Shown here piece after piece: positions 1 to 10,020 of a DNA stretch of 64,000 bases. The position numbers and the translations under genes are program-made. This stretch comes from Frateuria terrea (lineage in GTDB: Bacteria; Pseudomonadota; Gammaproteobacteria; Xanthomonadales; Rhodanobacteraceae), in the NCBI RefSeq assembly GCF_900115705.1, contig NZ_FOXL01000006.1, forward strand, positions 310,001-374,000. The letters are read 5' to 3'. Position 1 is the stretch's first letter. Every line of letters begins with the position of its first letter. The notes under the pieces were generated by a model, which searched no databases, was not told the origin of the DNA, and saw only the letters and a program-made list of their open reading frames with translations.

Positions 1-1013
1 CCGCCGCAGAGCGACAGGAAATAGTCTTTGCTCAACTTGAGCCAGTGATAAAGATAGCTGAGCGGATAGCGCTCATTCGGTAGGCAAGCGATGAAACCCT
101 GATTGGTGCACGCTGGCGTCGTATTGATGCCAATAGCGCCGATGGTCGCGCGGCTCGTCATCATCACCGAATAGGCTGGAAAAAGAGTTGCTGAGCAACT
201 GGACAGCCCTTCTTCCGTGCACTTCAGGCCCGACTCGCCAAGAAATAGGCCATCGGCAGCCGTGATGTCCGACGGTGTAAACCAATTGATCGTCCCGTCC
301 TTCCAGTAGCGCGCTGTGTCCTTTGAAGGCGTGGCACCCCCTGTGAACCGGAACGCCTTCGCGACCGGGACACTGGACCAACCTACGGGCTTGCCCTTTT
401 CAAATTTGGCCTGCCGATATTCCGGAAAGCGGAAGCGAACGAACCATTCGCGGTAGAGCTGCTCGGCCATCCGCTCCAGCAGGGCGATCCGGCGCCGGTT
501 GTTCTCGATCAGGTCGTCGTAGGCAACGAGGACTGCTGCGATCTCGTCTTGCTCCGCCTTCTCGGGAACGCTGAGAACCAGCTCCTTCGCGACCGTGATG
601 TTGAAGTGCTGCTGGGCGGCGCCCACAAGATTGCCGGCAACCACGTCTCGACCGAACGTCGAATTGAAAATGGCGCAGAGGAAGTGTGGATTGAGCTCCT
701 TGCTGGGTCGAACGATCACAAGATCGCTGCAATTCGAGCGCGGTAGCGACTCGGGGACCACGCACGCGACGCCTGGGTAGCCGGTTCGCACGATGGCGAC
801 ATCGCCCGGCCGCAAAGCCGACTTCCTGATCTTATGGTGGAAAGCCTCATCGATGAACATCAGCTTGTCGAGGCTGATGCGATACGGCCTGACATTGAGG
901 GAGCGAAGGAACGGTACGCCGGATGGCACATACTGCTGCGCCATCGGACCGACGTAACCCACAGTCACGCGCTCGCACAGGTCCTTCAATTTGACCTTCG
1001 GCCACACGCTCAC
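1..1013 (-). CDS. hsdS: Type I restriction-modification specificity subunit HsdS (3' end cut off)
   Basis: DNA-recognition subunit of a type I restriction-modification complex; it selects the bipartite target sequence for the HsdM methylase and HsdR. Reading the minus strand from a GTG at 1013-1011 gives one uninterrupted frame to the window edge (about 337 residues, C-terminus missing). It shows two target-recognition halves joined by a helical linker: the first ends with an 'EQDEIAAVLVAYDDLIENN' type coiled helix followed by 'LYREWFVRFRFPEY', and the second contains 'GGATPSKDTARYWKDG', 'WFTPSDIT' and 'TSRATIGAIGINT', all characteristic of HsdS. The GTG start overlaps the hsdM stop codon (GTGA, 1010-1013), so translation was probably coupled. 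Base composition is lower in GC than the housekeeping genes, as is common for mobile restriction loci. hsdR is not in the window and may lie to the left. Confidence 0.9.
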   Translation of the reverse strand, partial: MSVWPKVKLKDLCERVTVGYVGPMAQQYVPSGVPFLRSLNVRPYRISLDKLMFIDEAFHHKIRKSALRPGDVAIVRTGYPGVACVVPESLPRSNCSDLVIVRPSKELNPHFLCAIFNSTFGRDVVAGNLVGAAQQHFNITVAKELVLSVPEKAEQDEIAAVLVAYDDLIENNRRRIALLERMAEQLYREWFVRFRFPEYRQAKFEKGKPVGWSSVPVAKAFRFTGGATPSKDTARYWKDGTINWFTPSDITAADGLFLGESGLKCTEEGLSSCSATLFPAYSVMMTSRATIGAIGINTTPACTNQGFIACLPNERYPLSYLYHWLKLSKDYFLSLCG

Positions 1014-3083
1014 GATTCGCCTGCGATCTGCAAAGCGTTGGACTGGATAACAGTCTCCAGGTCTCGGGCGAAAGCGTTGAGATTTGCCAGCTCATCGTTC
1101 ATCGCCAGCAACTCGGCGACAAACTCCTCCTCCGTCTTCCCATCCTCCTCGGTCACCACGCCCACGTAGCGCCCGGGATTGAGCGACCAGTCCTGCTCCT
1201 TCACCTCGGCCAGCGTGGCCAGCTTGCACAGCCCGGTGACATCCTCGTAGGCGGCGCCGGGGAAGCGCTCCTGCAGCCAGCGCACGTGCTCGAACCAGTA
1301 TTCGGCGCGGCGCACTTCGCCGTGCAGGGCTTCCAATGCGGCCTTCAGCGCCTTGGTGTCGCGGTCGATACCGCCGCGCTTGCCCTCGGCCTGCGCCGCC
1401 TCGGTGAGGCGCTTCTCGTGCTGGCGCACGAGGCGGTCCAGCCGCTTGAGGTCGGCATGCAGCGCCTCGAAGAACGGGTCGCAGTGTTCGCGCAGCGCAT
1501 GCTGGGCGGTTGCTGACGGCGATCGAGGCATTGGGATCGGCCTTGGCCTGGTAGGCGGCGAAGCGCTTCTGCAGCGGCTTCAAGGCTGCCCATTCCTCCT
1601 GCATGGTCGACACAGCCTGCCGGCCCTCGGCGTCGTCCAGCACCGCCAGCAGTTGCTCGGCCAGCGGCGCGATGTGGGCATGGCTTTCGGCCAGCGCGGC
1701 GAAGCCGGCGGCGAAGTAGTCGTCCACAGCCTCGATGAATTCGTGGCGGTCGCCCAGGCGCAGCTGGCTGATCAGCGACAGGTTGCGCACCTGCTCGTCG
1801 CTGAACTCGCGATGGGCACGGTCGATCTGGGTGAACACGTTGCGCGCGTCGATGAACAGGATGCGCTCATCCGGCTTGGCCTTGTCGAAGAACCACAGCG
1901 TGGCCGGCAGGGTGACCGTGTAGAACATGTTGGACGGCAGGGTGAGCATGCCGTAGATCAGGTTGGCCTCGATCAGTGCCCGGCGGATGTCCGCCTCGGA
2001 ATGGCGGGCGTCGCTGGCCGAGTTGGCCATCACCAGCGCAGCGCGACCGTTGGGTTTGAGCGAGGTGGCGAACAGGTTTATCCACAGGTAGTTGGCGTTG
2101 GGCACGGTCTGCTTGCCCTCGTCCGCCTTCTTGACTTTGGTCTTGTTGCGCGGGATGCCGTAGGTGTTGAAGCGGCGGTCGCCCTCCACGCTACCCAGCG
2201 ACACGTCGTCCACGTTGAACGGCGGATTGGCCATCACGTAGTCGAACGCACCGAAGCTGTGGTGCGGGTCTTCGTAATAGGTGTTGGCCTGCATGATCTC
2301 GCCGCGCAGGCCGTTGACCGCCAGGTTCATCTTGGCCAGCTTGACGGTTTCGAGCGTTTTCTCCTGGCCGTAGACGTAGATGTCCGAACCACCCTCGGCC
2401 TGGTCGCGCCGGTGCTGCTCGATGAAGTGCGCCGACTGCACGAACATGCCGCCAGAGCCGCAGGCCGGGTCGTAGATGGTGCCGCCGTGCGGCTGCAGGA
2501 TGCCCACCATCAGCTGCACCACCGAGCGCGGGGTGAAGAACTCGCCGCCGCCCTGTCCCTCGGACATGGCGAACTCGGCGAGGAAATATTCGTAGATCTG
2601 GCCGAACAGGTCGCCGTCGGCGTCGGCCGGGATGTCTGCAAAGTTCTTCAGTAACTGGCGCGGGATGCCGCGGTTCTGCTCCGAGCGGGTGAAACGGAAA
2701 TACTCGTCCTGCGGCAGCACGCCCTGCAGCTCGGGCTTGTAGATCTCGATCGCCAGCATCGCTCCCTTGATCGCCTTGGCGATGTCCTCGCTGTCCGGCA
2801 GGTGGAGCAGGTAGTCATAGCGGGCGTGCTCGGGCAGGTAGAAGCCGCAGCGCTCCACCGCGATATCGGCCAGCTTGCGCTCGCTGCGCTTGCCCTTGTG
2901 TTTGCTGTACTCGGCGAGGATCGCATCCTCGTGCTTGCGGTAGTTGTTGTCAGCGAACTTGAGGAAGATCAGCCCGAGGACCGGGGTGGAGTACTCGCTG
3001 GCCTTGAGGTCGGAGTTGGCGCGCAGGCTGTCGGCCGCGCGCCACAGGTCGGCTTCGAGTTTCTTGAGCTGGTGTTTGGTCAT
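1010..3083 (-). pseudogene. hsdM: Type I restriction-modification methylase HsdM, broken by a +1 frameshift
   Basis: N6-adenine methyltransferase subunit of the type I system. Residues 1-525 read normally: N-terminal helical HsdM domain, SAM-binding motif DPACGSGG at about 205-212 and catalytic NPPF at about 286-289. Near position 1508-1509 the frame is lost. The first frame continues as low-complexity Arg/Ala-rich sequence to 1092 (663 aa in all), while the expected C-terminal helices (HALREHCDPFFEALH... to ...ALQIAGES) are in the next frame at about 1010-1510. Removing one G of the GG at 1508-1509 restores a 690-aa protein ending at 1010, in GTGA overlap with hsdS. Either a real inactivating mutation or a sequencing error. 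The start (ATG 3083) overlaps the stop of the upstream CBS-HEPN gene. Confidence 0.85.
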
Positions 3084-3961
3084 GGGTCGAGCATCGTTCT
3101 TTCGGTAGCGCGGGCAGCGAGACCGCCACGCGAAATGGTGTCTTGTATGGTTGCTTGCGTGTCAGCAAGACGCTGGAGCCAGGTATCCATGGTGTGGATC
3201 AGGCTGCAGACAGCTGTCGCTTGGGCGCGCGACGCGGCGAACTCGTTACCGTGGGCAAGCTGGTTGCGAAGCCATTCCAATTGGCTGAGGTCCTGCTCAA
3301 CCTCTTCGGCGGTCAGGTTGCCGAAGCCAAGTGGCTCGCGCAGCTTGCGTATCAGGGTGGCCTTGTCGCAGAACTGCGTGTAGAGGATCGGCGCCATCTG
3401 GTTGCCCTCCTCGCGAGCCGATGCCCACTGACGATCAAGCTTCTGCTGTCGCCCTACGGAGAGATGCCGGCGCCAGCTGCCGTCAGCAAATGCGGCTGCG
3501 ATGACCTCCGCCGTCGACATTTCGAGTTGCGTAATCACGGCGAACAGCGCCGCCCGAACCGGTAGCTGCTGCAGGTCGGACAGGCTCACCAGGCCACTGA
3601 TGTGCTGGCCGTCGACGATGAATCGAAACGGCGGCTGCCTCGCCTCGCGGGCAAAGTCAAGAATGCTTGCCTCGGCGCCGATCAGCAGCGCTTCGTGGAG
3701 CGGCTGGTAGCAGTCGCTGACCAAGCTATGGCCGGGGCCTTCGGCGAGGTCGACCGTGCAGAGCACACCAAGGATTGCCCCCGAGCCGGCATGCCTTACC
3801 GGCAGATGGTCGAATTGATTACCCACGTTGCGCGCGAGTACTTCGGCGATCGATTCGTCCAGCCGGCAGGCAGCAAATTCCTCTCGCTTGGTCGCGATCA
3901 AGCGCACCGGCAGGCTGGCCTGGTACGCATCCAAGATTCGCTGCGCGCCCTCGTCCGGCAT
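3080..3961 (-). CDS. CBS-domain protein with C-terminal HEPN-like RNase domain, first gene of the hsd operon in this window
   Basis: 293 aa. Residues about 30-140 resemble a pair of CBS domains; the second half carries 'FRFIVDG' and 'ISGLVSLSDL'. In other proteins CBS pairs bind adenine nucleotides and gate an attached effector. Residues about 138-270 are all-helical and contain RNQLAH at 232-237. This fits the R-x4-H motif (Asn after Arg) of HEPN ribonucleases, the fold found in toxins, Abi proteins and the PrrC anticodon nuclease. The stop codon overlaps the hsdM start by 4 nt (ATGA at 3083-3080), so it is co-translated with the methylase. It is preceded by a G-rich Shine-Dalgarno-like run. 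The domain calls are pattern recognition from the sequence, and ribonuclease activity is inference. It could be a stress- or phage-sensing effector tied to the restriction system, or a non-catalytic accessory protein. Confidence 0.7.
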   Translation of the reverse strand: MPDEGAQRILDAYQASLPVRLIATKREEFAACRLDESIAEVLARNVGNQFDHLPVRHAGSGAILGVLCTVDLAEGPGHSLVSDCYQPLHEALLIGAEASILDFAREARQPPFRFIVDGQHISGLVSLSDLQQLPVRAALFAVITQLEMSTAEVIAAAFADGSWRRHLSVGRQQKLDRQWASAREEGNQMAPILYTQFCDKATLIRKLREPLGFGNLTAEEVEQDLSQLEWLRNQLAHGNEFAASRAQATAVCSLIHTMDTWLQRLADTQATIQDTISRGGLAARATERTMLDP

Positions 3962-4056
3962 GCCTCCCCCCTTTCCATCAAGGGCGCAAGCATAGCGTCA
4001 GCCAGATGCGCCGTCGCTTCGGAGACAACCCGTGAACCGGCCAAAGCAGAGGGAAA

Positions 4057-4133
4057 TGGCGCGCCCGGAGGGATTCGAACCCCCGACCAATGGCTTCGGA
4101 AGCCACTACTCTATCCGGCTGAGCTACGGGCGC
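4057..4133 (-). tRNA. tRNA-Arg (anticodon CCG)
   Basis: On the minus strand the sequence folds as a standard 77-nt tRNA. The acceptor stem GCGCCCG pairs with CGGGCGC, the D-arm starts TAGCTCAG, the anticodon loop reads CTTCCGAAG with anticodon CCG, and the T-arm contains GGTTCGAATCC. The CCA end is encoded (TGG at 4057-4059 on the plus strand) after discriminator G. Its 3' end faces the type I restriction genes, the usual side for islands integrated at a tRNA gene. Confidence 0.96.
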
Positions 4134-4410: not shown

Positions 4411-6309
4411 TTACAGCGGCTTGATCAGCTCGCCCAGGGTGTCGGGCTTGCTCTTGTCGCGGACCAGGTGCGGGTACTTGAGGCCGTCGTGGTAGTCCAC
4501 GCGCAGGGTCTTGTACTCGTCGAAGTTCTTCACCAGCAGTTCGATCGGCTGGCTCTTGTCCTTCGCCGCGGCGGTGACCGCGTCCTTGATGGCGTCGCCG
4601 GAGAACTCCTTGCCGTTGACCGCCACGATGCTCATGCCGGGCGAGAGGCCGGCCTTGAACGCCGGGCCGTCCCAGAGCACGTCGGCGATCGCGCCATCCT
4701 TGCCGAGCGAGACGCCGAGCGAGTAGGTCAGGTCGGTGAAGTGGCGGCGTGATTCGATCGCCTTGACCGCGGCGGAGGGCTTGTCGGTGTAGACCAGTTT
4801 CCAGCCGTGCGAGGCGATGCCCCCGATCAGCGGGCCGTGGCCATCCAGGCGCGTGCGCAGGTAGCTCTTCCAGTCATACGGCTGGATGTCGTTGAGCGTC
4901 TTGACCACGTCCTCGAAGGTGTAGGTATTGACGCTCCAGTCACCGTTGTTCATGCCGAAGAAGGCACGGGCGAAGTCGTCGATCTTCTTCTTGCCATGCG
5001 AGAGCTCGCGCAGCTTGCCGTCGACGTCCAGCCAGATCATCTCGCCGGCCGAGTAGTAGTCCTCGCTGGCCTGGTAGTTGCGGTACGGCAGCGGGCGGCG
5101 CTGGGCGATCGGCGGGTCGTTGGTGGTGTCCTGCACGTTGCGCCAGCTGGCCAGGCCGGGGCGGCCCTTGTCGTAGGTGGCGGCGACGAAGGCGAGCATG
5201 TCCAGCGTCTGCTCGGTGTTCCACAGACCCGAGCGCGCGGCCATGATCTGGCCCCAGAACTGGGTCTGGCCCTCGTACACCCACAGCAGGGTGTCGCTCA
5301 TGGGCACGTTGAAGTTGGGCGTGGTCAGATCCGCGCCGCGGCGGTACTTGCCGTCCCAGGAGTGGTTGAACTCGTGCGAGAACAGGTCGCGCGCGTAGAC
5401 GTTCTTGTCCCACTCGGTGAAGTAGTCGGCCGAGGTGCCGTCCTCGCTGGAGCGATGGTGCTCCAGGCCGTTGCCGCTCATCTTGTCGCTGAGCGAGGTC
5501 AGGAAGTCGTAGTGGTTGTAGTGGTGCGCGCCGTAGAGCTTGTACATCTGTTGCACCAGGTTGCGGTGCGCCTTCAGCTGCTCGGGCTTGATCTCCAGGT
5601 ACTTCGGATCGTCGGCGACGATGTCCATGTGCACCGGCGTCTTGGCGCCCGGATCGAGATCCACGCGCTTGAAGTACTTGCCGGCGTAGATCGGCGAGTC
5701 GACCAGCGCGTTGTAGGTCAACGGCTTGTAGTTGACCGTGCTGCCGCTGGTCGAGGCGATTTCCAGCGCCGTACCGGCCTGCCAGCCTGCCGGATAGGTC
5801 ACGCTGGCCTGCGCCTCGATCTTGCGGATGTTGTAGCCGGCCGGGTACAGCGACACGGTATTCCACTGCAGGTTGAGCATTTCCGGCGTCATCACGACGC
5901 GACCCTGCTTGGTGTCCTGCGGCGAGAGGAATTCGAAGTAGGCCTGCACCTCGGTGGCGCCCTGCGGCACGTCGACGTGGAAGGCGTAGACGTTGAGCGG
6001 GTCGCGCGTCCACGGCAGCACCTTGCCGTTGGCCTTGATCACCAGGCCGGCGAACTTGTCGATCGGGCCGGTCGGCGAGTGGTTGCCGGGAATCCACTGC
6101 GGGTAAAGCAGGGTCAGCGGACCAGGCTGGGCCGGGATGGTTTCGTTGACGCGGAACACGCGATGCGCAAGGTCGGTGGCGTCGACCGAGATCTTCAGCG
6201 TGCCGTTGAACGAGGCATCGCCGATCGGCGGCACGTCGGCAAGAACGGGCACGGCGACCAGCGCGAAGCCGGCGGCCAGCAGGGCGGATGCGAGGGGTTG
6301 GGTTTTCAC
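4411..6309 (-). CDS. M61-family metallopeptidase with PDZ domain (first of a tandem pair)
   Basis: Zinc aminopeptidase-type protein of the glycyl-aminopeptidase (M61) family, predicted to be exported. The chosen GTG start (6309) has GGAGAG eight bases upstream and yields a 632-aa precursor with a clear signal peptide (hydrophobic stretch ending VPVLA/DV); an upstream in-frame GTG at 6345 lacks a ribosome site. The N-terminal beta domain is followed by the zinc site HEFNH (about 312-316, in 'SHEFNHSWDGK'). A C-terminal PDZ domain ('SLGVSLGKDG...GPAFKAGLSPGMSIVAVNG') occupies about the last 110 residues. It is followed at 6458-8356 by a paralogue of exactly the same length on the same strand. 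The substrate is unknown. Confidence 0.9.
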   Translation of the reverse strand: MKTQPLASALLAAGFALVAVPVLADVPPIGDASFNGTLKISVDATDLAHRVFRVNETIPAQPGPLTLLYPQWIPGNHSPTGPIDKFAGLVIKANGKVLPWTRDPLNVYAFHVDVPQGATEVQAYFEFLSPQDTKQGRVVMTPEMLNLQWNTVSLYPAGYNIRKIEAQASVTYPAGWQAGTALEIASTSGSTVNYKPLTYNALVDSPIYAGKYFKRVDLDPGAKTPVHMDIVADDPKYLEIKPEQLKAHRNLVQQMYKLYGAHHYNHYDFLTSLSDKMSGNGLEHHRSSEDGTSADYFTEWDKNVYARDLFSHEFNHSWDGKYRRGADLTTPNFNVPMSDTLLWVYEGQTQFWGQIMAARSGLWNTEQTLDMLAFVAATYDKGRPGLASWRNVQDTTNDPPIAQRRPLPYRNYQASEDYYSAGEMIWLDVDGKLRELSHGKKKIDDFARAFFGMNNGDWSVNTYTFEDVVKTLNDIQPYDWKSYLRTRLDGHGPLIGGIASHGWKLVYTDKPSAAVKAIESRRHFTDLTYSLGVSLGKDGAIADVLWDGPAFKAGLSPGMSIVAVNGKEFSGDAIKDAVTAAAKDKSQPIELLVKNFDEYKTLRVDYHDGLKYPHLVRDKSKPDTLGELIKPL

Positions 6310-6457
6310 GGAAAAGGCTCTCCGGTGGTGGCGCTCGAAGTTCACCAGTTCGTGCCGGGTGCGGCGCAGCGAAGTCGGGGGACATCCGCCGCGCGCCGGT
6401 CCTTCGACTCCAGCCCTGCGGGCCTGCGCTCGGGACGAACGGTGAGGGATGGATGGG

Positions 6458-8356
6458 TTATTTGCGTGGAGCGGTGATTGCGGTCATCAGATCCTTGCCG
6501 CCGGCGCGAACCAGGTGCGGATACTTCAGGCCGCCGTGGTAGTCGACCTTGACGGTGCTGTAGACGTCCACGTTCTTGACCAGCAGCTCGATCGGCGCCT
6601 TGCCGGTCTTGGCGGCGGCGACGGCGTCCTTCAGCGCATCGGGCGAGAAGTCCTTGCCGTTGACCGCGACGATGGTCAGGCCCGGCACCAGCCCGGCGTC
6701 GAACGCGGGTCCGTTCCACTGGACGTCGTAGATGTTGCCGCTCTTGGAGGCGGACAGGCCCAGCGAATAGGCCAGGTTGACGTTGTGGCGCAGCGACTCG
6801 GCGGCCTTGGCCTCGGCGTTGGGCGTGTCGGTATAGACGAGCTTCCAGCCACCGCGCTCGATGCCGTGCTCGGGCAGCTGGTCGCCCACATAGTCCAGCC
6901 GCGTGCGCAGGAAGGTCTTCCAGTCGTAGGGCTGCACCTGGTTGAGGGTGTTCACCACGTCCTCGAACGTATAGGTCCTGGTGACGTAGCTGCCGTTGTC
7001 CATGCCGAAGAAGGCGTGGGCGAAGTCATCCAGCGAGTGCTTGCCGTGCGAGAGCTCGCGGATCTGCGTGTCCACGTCCAGCCACAGCAGCTGGCCTTCC
7101 GGATAGAAGTCAGTGCCGCGGCGCCAGTTGCCCCAGCCGTTGCCGCCGAAGTAGGTCAGCGGCGCGGCGTCGGCGGTGTCCTGCAGCGGACGCCAGTCGC
7201 GGCCGGTGCGCGCCGACATCGCCGCAGCGATATTGGCCATCGAGTCGCGGTACTGCGCGGCCGTCCACATGCCCGAGCGCGCGGTGAGCACGCCGGACCA
7301 GTAGTCGGTCAGGCCCTCGTAGACCCACAGAAGGTCGTCCTCTTCGACCGTGTTGAAGTCCGGCGCCCACAGCTTCGCCGGGCGGCGGAACTTGCCGCAC
7401 CAGGAGTGCACGTATTCGTGCGGCATCAGGCTGGCCATCAGCGTGTAGGACTTGTCGTCCGTCAGCATGTCGGCTGGCAGGCGGTCGTCGCTGGACTGGT
7501 GGTGCTCCAGGCCGAAATGGCCGGTATGGTCGGACAGCGTGAGCAGGAAGTCGTAATGCCCGTAATGGTGCGCGCCGAAGAGCCGGTTGGCCTGCTCGAC
7601 GAGGTGGCGGTGCTGCTCGAGCTGCTTGTCGGTGAGCTTGACCTGGTCGGCCTCGTCGGCCACCACGTTGAGGTGCACCGGCACGTCGCCCTTGGGAGCG
7701 AGGTCCACGCGGTTGAAGTGCTCGCCGGCGATCAGCGGCGAGTCGACGAAGTTGTTGAAGCTGATCGGCTGGAAGACCGTGGTGGCGCCGGCGCGCGACT
7801 GCACTTGCATCGCGGTGCCGAACTGCCAGCCCTTGGGCAGCGTCACGGTCGGCTGGATCTGGATCTGCCGCGTGTAGTAGCCGGCCGGGTAGAACGCCAC
7901 CTGGTTGAATTCCACGTCGACCAGGTTCGGCGTCGACGAGGCGCTGGCGCCAAACAGCCCGCCCTCGCCCGGTGAGAGGAACTGGAACTGGAGCTCCAGC
8001 GCGGTGGCGCCCTCGGGCACGGCCAGGTGAAGCGTGTACATGTCGCGCAGGTCGCGGCGCCAGGGCACCCGCTTGCCGTTGGCGGTGATGATCAGACCCG
8101 CCAGGTTGTCGATCGGACCGGAGGGCGCGTGCTCGCCGGGGATCCACTGCGGGTAGTACAGGGTCATCGCACCGGGCTTGGCCGGGATGGTCTCGTGCAC
8201 GCGGAAGATCTTCTTCGGCGCATCGGTGAGGTCCACCTTAAGCGTCAGCATGCCCGGATAGGGCTGGTCGACCGGCGGCGCCTTCTCCGCGAGCGCACCG
8301 AACGACAACGCCGCGCCCAGCGCGACCACGAGCAGCTTCGAACGAACATTCTTCAC
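6458..8356 (-). CDS. M61-family metallopeptidase with PDZ domain (second of a tandem pair)
   Basis: Paralogue of the preceding gene, also 632 aa from its GTG start (8356), which has AGGGGA a few bases upstream. An open frame continues upstream to 8950, but that part overlaps the divergent-frame permease and is not coding. The signal peptide is hydrophobic and ends near ALA/EKAPP. The zinc motif is HEYVH at about 313-317, within 'MPHEYVHSWCGKFRRP'. The C-terminal PDZ domain ends the protein ('GPAFDAGLVPGLTIVAVNGKDFS'). The HExxH surroundings differ from the sister enzyme (Cys after HSW instead of Asp), suggesting different specificity. The 148-bp gap between the two genes holds only repeat-like GC-rich sequence, so they are probably co-transcribed. 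Confidence 0.9.
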   Translation of the reverse strand: MKNVRSKLLVVALGAALSFGALAEKAPPVDQPYPGMLTLKVDLTDAPKKIFRVHETIPAKPGAMTLYYPQWIPGEHAPSGPIDNLAGLIITANGKRVPWRRDLRDMYTLHLAVPEGATALELQFQFLSPGEGGLFGASASSTPNLVDVEFNQVAFYPAGYYTRQIQIQPTVTLPKGWQFGTAMQVQSRAGATTVFQPISFNNFVDSPLIAGEHFNRVDLAPKGDVPVHLNVVADEADQVKLTDKQLEQHRHLVEQANRLFGAHHYGHYDFLLTLSDHTGHFGLEHHQSSDDRLPADMLTDDKSYTLMASLMPHEYVHSWCGKFRRPAKLWAPDFNTVEEDDLLWVYEGLTDYWSGVLTARSGMWTAAQYRDSMANIAAAMSARTGRDWRPLQDTADAAPLTYFGGNGWGNWRRGTDFYPEGQLLWLDVDTQIRELSHGKHSLDDFAHAFFGMDNGSYVTRTYTFEDVVNTLNQVQPYDWKTFLRTRLDYVGDQLPEHGIERGGWKLVYTDTPNAEAKAAESLRHNVNLAYSLGLSASKSGNIYDVQWNGPAFDAGLVPGLTIVAVNGKDFSPDALKDAVAAAKTGKAPIELLVKNVDVYSTVKVDYHGGLKYPHLVRAGGKDLMTAITAPRK

Positions 8357-8529
8357 GAGCACTTCCCCTGACGGACGACGGGCGCCTGCGCGCCTCACCT
8401 GCCACGCCGGGGCCACGACCGCGACCCGATAACCAACATGACAGTCATCCGATGGTAGGACGAAGGTCACGCCCCTCCCCCTGCCAGAGGTCACGCCGGA
8501 ACCATGCGCCGGCGTCTGGAAAACGCATG

Positions 8530-10020
8530 TCAGTCGCGCCCGCCTTCCAGCCGGCTGTGGCGCATGCCGTAGAGGAAATAGATCGCCAGGCCCAGCACCA
8601 TCCACACCACGAAGCGCCAGATGGTCACCGCCGGCAGGCCGCCGAGGAAATGCAGATGGCCGTTGGCGATCCACGGCCAGCCGATAATCAGCAACAACGA
8701 GAACAGCATGCCGGCCGGGGCGACCAGCCACAGCGCCGGGGTGCGGAAGCTGCGCTGCAGGTGGGGCTTGCGCACGCGCAGGATCAGCACCGAAGCGCAG
8801 ATGACGATGAACGCCGAGAGCGTGCCGATGTTGACCAGTTCGGCCACCTCGCCGATCGGCAGGAAACCGGCGACCAGTGCGGTGAACACGCCCAGGATCA
8901 TGGTCGGCCGGGCCGGGGTGCCGTACTTCGGATGCACCTGCGAGAACCATTTGGGCAGCAGCCCGTCACGCGAGAGGGCGAACCAGATGCGCGCCGCGCC
9001 GAGCATGAAGGCAAACAGCACGCTGGTGATGCCGGCGATCGCCGCCACCGAGATGATGCCGCGTACCCAGTCCAGCCCCAGCGCCTTGAAAGCCGCGTCC
9101 ACCGGAGCCGGCGAGTTGAGCTGCGCATAGGGCACCATGCCGGTGAGCACCAGCGACACGGCCAGATAAAGCGCCATCGACACCGCCAGCGAGAGCAGCA
9201 CCGCGCGCGGCAGGTCGCGCTGCGGGTGCCTGGCTTCTTCGGCCGCGGTGGTCAGCGTGTCGTAGCCGAACACGGCGAAGAAAACCACGCTGGAAGCGGC
9301 CAGCACGCCGCCCCAGCCGAAGTGGTCCCCATCGGTGCCGTGCACGACCGGCGGGATGAACGGGTGCCAGTTGGCGGTATCGACGAAGAAGGCACCCACG
9401 CCGATCACCAGCGCCACGCCGATCACCTTGATCACCACTACCGCAGTGTTGAAGCGCGCGCCCCATTCGGTCCTGACCGTGAGCATCACGGCGATCAGCA
9501 GCGAGATCGCCGCCGCGATCACGTTGAACACCTTGCCGTTGCCCGGGTGGGCGGGGTCGTACGCGCCCTGCGCCCAGACCGGCAGCTGCACGTGGAAGAG
9601 CTGCTCGATCAACGCCTGCACGTAGCCGGACCAGCCGATCGCCACCACACCCACGATCAGCGCGTATTCGATCAGAAGGTCCCAGCCGATGATCCAGGCG
9701 AACAGCTCGCCCAGCACCGCGTAGCCATAGGTATAGGCACTGCCGGTGACCGGGATCAGACCGGAGAATTCGGCATAGGCCAGCGCCGCGCAGGCGCTGC
9801 CCAGGCCGGCGACGATGAAGGAGACGATCACCGCGGGGCCGGCGTTGACCGCCGCCTGCTGGCCGGCCAGCACGAACACGCCCACGCCGATGATCGCGCC
9901 GATGCCGATCGCCGTGAGTTGCCACAGTCCCAGTACGCGACGGAAATCGCTGGAGCCTCCGGCCTCGGCCTGCAGTTGCTCGACCGACTTGTGGCGCACC
10001 AGCCTGGCTAGAAAACCCAT
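8530..10020 (-). CDS. APC-superfamily amino-acid permease
   Basis: 496 aa with about 12-13 hydrophobic segments. The N-terminal motif 'AIGIGAIIGVGVFVLAGQQA', in TM1, is the substrate- and cation-coordinating unwound helix of the amino-acid/polyamine/organocation family. 'YAEFSGLIPVTGSAYTYGYAVLGE' follows in TM2-3. It closely resembles the cationic amino-acid transporter-like YfnA/CAT group, so import of an amino acid at the inner membrane is likely, but the substrate cannot be read from sequence. It sits upstream of the M61 peptidases on the same strand with a 173-bp gap, so uptake of peptide-derived amino acids is a reasonable though unproven link. Confidence 0.88.
   Translation of the reverse strand: MGFLARLVRHKSVEQLQAEAGGSSDFRRVLGLWQLTAIGIGAIIGVGVFVLAGQQAAVNAGPAVIVSFIVAGLGSACAALAYAEFSGLIPVTGSAYTYGYAVLGELFAWIIGWDLLIEYALIVGVVAIGWSGYVQALIEQLFHVQLPVWAQGAYDPAHPGNGKVFNVIAAAISLLIAVMLTVRTEWGARFNTAVVVIKVIGVALVIGVGAFFVDTANWHPFIPPVVHGTDGDHFGWGGVLAASSVVFFAVFGYDTLTTAAEEARHPQRDLPRAVLLSLAVSMALYLAVSLVLTGMVPYAQLNSPAPVDAAFKALGLDWVRGIISVAAIAGITSVLFAFMLGAARIWFALSRDGLLPKWFSQVHPKYGTPARPTMILGVFTALVAGFLPIGEVAELVNIGTLSAFIVICASVLILRVRKPHLQRSFRTPALWLVAPAGMLFSLLLIIGWPWIANGHLHFLGGLPAVTIWRFVVWMVLGLAIYFLYGMRHSRLEGGRD

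Follow-up and report, generated by a model that had tools for sequence, protein, structure and literature searches.

A diverged CBS-HEPN protein as a probable anti-phage effector at the head of an inserted type I restriction operon in Frateuria terrea

PrrC, an HEPN anticodon nuclease, is a component of type I hsd loci, and the paper describing it also noted, in 2013, fusions of HEPN with CBS domains, some of them with an HD domain as well, for which ligand-controlled RNA stability was suggested (PMC3710099, as excerpted). DS-11, an E. coli anti-phage system consisting of a single CBS-HEPN protein, was tested in 2026, and its defence was abolished by Y157A in the CBS part and by HEPN catalytic mutants (PMC13092281, as excerpted). 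The earlier note on the DNA considered here had suggested that this kind of effector could be undescribed, a view that these excerpts of the 2013 and 2026 papers do not support (PMC3710099; PMC13092281). Other genes are also reported inside type I operons, in the passages of the papers that concern them: DarTG2 lies between hsdS and hsdR (PMC12255303), TgvAB lies within a type I cluster (PMC11411939), and the regulator RptR is the first gene of another type I island (PMC12255303).

The window analysed here is a stretch of 64,000 nucleotides from Frateuria terrea. At its left end begins a five-gene operon on one strand, in the order CBS-HEPN gene, hsdM, hsdS, SoFic-type Fic gene and hsdR, which we followed into the surrounding DNA (L035); HsdR has HSDR_N, SWI2_SNF2 and T1RH-like_C domains. 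The 293-aa open reading frame proposed earlier at 3080-3961 on the minus strand, with its four-base ATGA overlap with hsdM (1092-3083, minus), is confirmed. The features are:

3080..3961, minus: CBS-HEPN gene, 293 aa, first in the operon (open reading frame; family profile match)
3566..3913, minus: degenerate CBS pair, about residues 17-132, edges estimated (Pfam CBS; profile alignment with the DS-11 group)
3227..3556, minus: HEPN domain, about residues 136-245, edges estimated (family rows matching HEPN_Swt1)
3251..3268, minus: codons of R232-N-Q-L-A-H237, the predicted HEPN active-site motif (family conservation)
3080..3083, minus: ATGA stop/start overlap of the CBS-HEPN gene and hsdM (open reading frame coordinates)
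1092..3083, minus: hsdM, frameshifted near its 3' end, as an open reading frame with an out-of-frame tail (HsdM_N and N6_Mtase)
1010..1531, minus: other-frame open reading frame holding the C-terminal part of HsdM (match to N6_Mtase profile positions 275-310, E 0.00023)
3..1013, minus: hsdS, which exits the window and is complete at L035:13755-15014, 419 aa (Methylase_S, E 1.3e-25 for the complete protein)
L035:12455-13588, left of the window: SoFic-type Fic gene between hsdS and hsdR (PADLOC SoFic, 9e-118)
4049..4133, minus: right edge of the insertion at about 4049, and tRNA-Arg (CCG) at 4057-4133

Two features of the operon had gone unmentioned in the earlier note, the Fic gene that lies, beyond the window, between hsdS and hsdR and is a third probable defence layer of the cassette, and the frameshift near the 3' end of hsdM. 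A sister HsdM of 692 aa (L168) can be aligned with frame 1 as far as base 1614 and, starting at base 1574, with frame 2, and roughly the last 165 residues are encoded in another frame (window 1010-1600, minus). With hsdM frameshifted in the assembly, the sequenced strain may lack an active restriction system; the CBS-HEPN reading frame is open.

The locus had been called island-like, and a comparison with five genomes of the same genus (loci L188-L192) bears this out. The flanks at 8944 and 18050 of L035 lie only about 150 bp apart in one of them (G001, L189), relative to which 9105 bp are inserted beside tRNA-Arg, and the genes seen in this insertion are those of the CBS-HEPN/hsd operon. The CBS-HEPN gene starts 95 bases beyond the 3' end of the tRNA gene (4057-4133, minus). 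At the same site G003 has a PAS/GAF histidine kinase, G004 has about 1.95 kb of other DNA, and in G002 and G005, where the left flank was not reached, different type I genes occur (26-27% identity to the window HsdM, with an EcoEI-type HsdR in G005). The 3' side of this tRNA-Arg is thus variable across the genus, being empty or occupied by a histidine kinase or by other type I restriction genes. No direct repeat of the tRNA end was found at the borders of the insertion; the only repeats, two 11-mers, are outside it. Beyond the tRNA, two adjacent genes at 4411-8950 (minus), which we take to encode M61-type peptidases, share about 69% DNA identity over about 1.7 kb.

Judged from its sequence and its family, the product of the first gene is a CBS-HEPN protein whose HEPN motif is intact. 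By itself the protein gives little: Pfam CBS matches it in two stretches at E 0.0053, under the curated cut-off, PADLOC CARF-HEPN matches residues 220-248 at E 0.009, and the Pfam scan returned neither an HEPN nor an HD match and, at E up to 10, no NTPase. The RNQLAH motif at residues 232-237 (window 3251-3268), proposed earlier as the HEPN signature (in the superfamily R-x4-6-H, with the Arg mostly followed by a polar residue), is also weak on its own, as R-x4-H was present in 2473 of 5000 shuffles of the protein and R[NDH]-x3-H in 306, with LRNxxAH in none; we take it as real because it is conserved across the family. R232 and H237 are invariant in all 14 rows of one family alignment (A3), together with F114, F140, E147, W163, L231 and A236, and in all 75 rows of a larger one (A8), together with N233 and L235. 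The proposed HEPN domain finds its Pfam support in the relatives, with 70 of the 75 A8 rows matching HEPN_Swt1 (E up to 0.05; 1.7e-6 for the best row) and the window row not among them. The proposed CBS pair is degenerate: its two Pfam stretches fall below the cut-off, and the family profile aligns both repeats with the DS-11 group; 43 of the 75 A8 rows match Pfam CBS at E up to 0.05. A profile of the 74 relatives, with the window protein excluded, recovers that protein at E 6.8e-18 and reported none of 2000 shuffles; identity in the CBS-HEPN half in A8 is 19-30%.

These alignments were built in steps. A tblastn search with the window protein found haloarchaeal plasmid proteins (24-27% identity, three records), and a second HD-less relative was found in the same order (G079, E 8e-14); their alignment, A2, served as a profile and had matches in 16 of 369 class genomes (E up to 1e-4). 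From 14 other matching genomes 13 loci were taken (G154 was left out), ten proteins were extracted and nine were used, trimmed, to extend A2 to the 14 rows of A3; L048, whose frame is apparently rearranged, was left out, as were L042, L047 and L049, which among the 13 records were not extracted as proteins. The ten gammaproteobacterial relatives that were read are 439-567 aa long with, by eye, an HD-like N-terminal region, and the one scanned whole (L039) matches Pfam HD_4 at E 9.6e-19. A contig scan with the CBS-HEPN halves of gammaproteobacterial proteins yielded 250 relatives from 306 stretches, the best 80 of which were taken on; 74 of these 80 loci have an HD-type motif on the match strand, and 74 of the 80 were used in A8, with L127, L128, L135, L138, L140 and L142 excluded by eye as likely near copies.

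The A3 profile matched six of 398 genomes in a sample of the order (G000, G079, the CBS-HEPN loci L071 and L073, and L072 and L074 with stand-alone HEPN_Swt1 proteins), and a sample of the phylum gave, at E up to 1e-4, seven of 299 (G000, G079 and five partial matches to the CBS part at 23-26 bits). No match was obtained with A3 in 78 genomes of the class of G507 or with the A7 profile in 185 genomes of the window's class, two sets that contained no known positive. The window protein alone found no relative in genome and viral contigs by the patterns used, nor in phage records by tblastn. The CBS-only matches L003-L007, five of the seven matching genomes of one search, were dropped as other proteins, L003 alone having been read. 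The top PDB match of A8, designed PPR repeats, was rejected as an artefact that arises from adding up weak repeats (E of about 490-1300 for each repeat taken singly), and A8 found no HEPN structure in the PDB by sequence.

We infer that DS-11 is the 365-aa E. coli protein WP_000257686.1 (L075), because host, domains and a Tyr at residue 157 in the first CBS repeat agree; its gene is present in 127 of 5426 E. coli genomes, in 126 of them over at least 80% of the query. The A3 profile aligns with that of the DS-11 group over 192 columns (probability 96, E 4.4e-9), whereas the window sequence alone gives a probability of 0.6, and tblastn with the window protein at E up to 1e-5 reached four of 11 HD-less records and none of six DS-11-type records. 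The homology of the window protein runs through the family profile, there being neither a Pfam HEPN match nor a direct DS-11 match for the single protein. DS-11 and the window protein have in common a CBS pair followed by HEPN with R-N-x-V/L-x-H in a single protein. They differ in the N-terminal 110 or so residues of DS-11, which have no counterpart here (the alignment pairs window residue 27 with DS-11 residue 137). Y157 of DS-11, at the adenine-contact position of the first CBS repeat, aligns with F50 in a column that is variable in A8; L076 and L077 of the DS-11 group also have Phe at this position. In the single E. coli region that was read, no hsd gene is annotated near DS-11, whereas the window gene is inside an hsd operon. 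The HD-CBS-HEPN proteins share the CBS-HEPN half and the invariant residues with the window protein but have an N-terminal HD domain that it lacks, and their loci contain no homologue of the window hsd operon within the stretches examined. In the tree the window protein has a long branch (2.3) of unsure placement, grouped with the HD types and L036 (91/87, unstarred), and DS-11 forms a separate clade (98/95) away from it.

The earlier note took a lack of association with hsd genes elsewhere as counting against it, and such a lack was seen in the records examined: by tblastn at E up to 1e-5, none of 110 other family locus records has a homologue of the window HsdM, HsdS, HsdR or Fic protein, and other modules occupy the position before hsdM in two sister operons. 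The records (80 + 13 + 11 + 6, with mean lengths of 8.5-16 kb, more distant restriction genes being outside the reach of the test) represent about 100 distinct loci; at least nine of the 13 apparently duplicate entries among the 80, and a single E. coli gene accounts for both L075 and L193. A general linkage of CBS-HEPN genes to hsdM was accordingly rejected.

Ten other HD-less or DS-11-like loci had readable surroundings, and restriction or defence genes are close by in four of them. L036 sits after a gene matching PADLOC PDC-M36A (6.7e-45), L062 adjoins an Mrr-type gene, and a DS-11-type CBS-HEPN gene has GajA and GajB genes at a distance of about 2.7 kb (L073:1384-9536). In the fourth, a DISARM-like locus on a haloarchaeal plasmid that includes DrmA and genes for helicases, CBS-HEPN is fused behind a degenerate methylase-like domain (L010:7095-8567; PADLOC mad2, E 8.5e-6; Pfam N6_Mtase, E 0.13). 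Such genes are some kb away in two more (L009 and L066); the haloarchaeal L064 is surrounded by metabolic genes, and L008 and L065, also haloarchaeal, have no annotated restriction gene within the stretch read. That most of these loci are on plasmids carries no weight, since they were drawn from a plasmid collection. The L037 gene follows what we take to be atp genes and glmU, a housekeeping setting. A divergent gene of 115-118 aa is directly upstream in each of seven haloarchaeal CBS-HEPN loci (L008, L009 and L062-L066); it is possibly a partner or antitoxin, and two of its products gave no Pfam match at E 0.01. An Anabaena plasmid protein (L078:5752-7329) has, by eye, a CBS-HEPN-like start and carries a DUF4268 annotation.

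The position before hsdM was read in related operons. With E up to 1e-80, the window HsdM had matches in eight of 150 genomes from the order, and at 1e-130 in three of 274 from the class, its own included each time; four matches of the order search at 44-45% identity were left out of this reading, and five other genomes have HsdM at 70% identity or more (G077, G081, G782, G317 and G323). In G077 (L168), whose hsdM, hsdS and hsdR products are 68, 59 and 65% identical to those of the window over the parts aligned by blastp, a SoFic-type Fic gene precedes hsdM, also with a four-base overlap. In G323 (L174), where hsdS is split into two open reading frames, an AbiEi/AbiEii pair ends 35 bases ahead of hsdM. 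The lists of open reading frames show no toxin-type gene before hsdM in G081 and G782, and G317 was not counted since its contig ends there. A toxin-type module thus occupies two of the four readable sister slots, and CBS-HEPN none of the four (blastp with the window protein; for L174, by profile). Among 13 plasmid records with a more distant related HsdM, five were read and none has CBS-HEPN in the operon: of the four annotated operons, two have a second M or M/S gene ahead of hsdM and the others a COR-domain protein or an ImmA/IrrE gene, and the unannotated L176 gave no CBS-HEPN match. These few operons suggest that abortive modules, among them CBS-HEPN, SoFic and AbiE, are swapped in and out of the place directly ahead of hsdM.

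We consider it reasonably probable, with clear reservations, that the protein is a CBS-gated HEPN ribonuclease, that it acts by itself as an abortive-type effector against phage, and that it is exchangeable cargo at the head of a type I cassette. This reading starts from what the DNA itself displays, namely homology to CBS-HEPN proteins, a conserved motif, the operon and its 9.1-kb insertion, and the other modules in two sister slots. In it the earlier proposal of a defence effector in an island-like restriction locus survives as probable, the gene being first in an inserted type I cassette. If DS-11 is a guide, a dimer of the window protein would bind an adenine nucleotide in its CBS pair, the HEPN active site (R232 and H237) would be freed when infection alters the bound ligand, and RNA cleavage would then halt phage growth; on this analogy adenine-nucleotide gating is plausible. 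Coupled translation, to judge from the overlap, would keep the protein expressed alongside the restriction system, and it would serve as a second layer once restriction fails, with no need for contact with Hsd proteins. In this it would resemble DarTG2 and TgvAB, independent defence genes inside hsd operons, except that those lie between hsdS and hsdR or within the cluster and the present module is first and overlaps hsdM. Against the effector reading stand the lack of a Pfam HEPN match and of a direct DS-11 match, F50 at the Y157 position, the long tree branch, the settings of L037 and L064, L008 and L065 without a restriction gene in the stretch read, the hsdM frameshift, and the extra HD domain of most gammaproteobacterial relatives seen.

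The overlap with hsdM in a type I operon also invites a PrrC-like arrangement, in which HsdM and HsdR or the assembled enzyme would silence the HEPN nuclease and anti-restriction proteins would release it, with the CBS pair adding a nucleotide condition. PrrC is likewise an HEPN effector encoded in hsd loci (PMC3710099, as excerpted), and the methylase-like fusion in L010 points the same way. PrrC, however, has an ABC-type NTPase at its N-terminus where the window protein has a CBS pair, and no recurring hsd linkage was found in the records examined. The roughly 100 distinct loci free of these hsd genes, the unrelated modules in two sister slots, the intact CBS-HEPN frame beside a frameshifted hsdM, and the description of DS-11 as a one-protein system (PMC13092281, as excerpted) leave such an arrangement a minor but real chance. 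Its sharpest form, a two-key suicide effector licensed by both the CBS-bound nucleotide and the state of the type I enzyme and firing only when restriction is disabled during infection, we regard as unlikely. A role outside phage defence, as an HD-less branch of the HD-CBS-HEPN proteins that would tune RNA turnover to nucleotide levels in a stress or alarmone response, draws on the nearest tree rows (HD-CBS-HEPN and L036), on the HD-type motif in 74 of the best 80 of 250 relatives with HD_4 in L039, and on the metabolic neighbours of L064; it appears quite improbable for a gene within an insertion composed of a restriction operon, in a family with restriction or defence genes close by in four and some kb off in two of the ten readable HD-less or DS-11-like loci. 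Very doubtful, finally, is the idea that the protein is without catalysis and helps or regulates the hsd operon, its HEPN fold serving only to bind protein or RNA: its first position recalls RptR in another type I island (PMC12255303, as excerpted), but selection on catalysis is favoured by the retention, at 19-30% identity, of the HEPN residues that do not vary in the family, R232, N233 and H237 among them.

Taken as a stand-alone effector, the window protein is probably an RNA-cutting enzyme with a nucleotide sensor that adds a back-up defence to a restriction system. What is new is the HD-less CBS-HEPN branch and its placement in a type I restriction operon, an arrangement of which we recognised no description among the open-licence PMC papers searched. 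The finding would extend the CBS-HEPN effector kind known from DS-11 to a diverged branch with neither the DS-11 N-terminal region nor an HD domain. Furthermore, the apparent swap slot before hsdM makes the direct licensing of effectors by restriction enzymes testable, and the methylase-like fusion of L010 in its DISARM-like haloarchaeal locus would, if licensing by both nucleotide and enzyme is true, hold that two-key logic in one chain.
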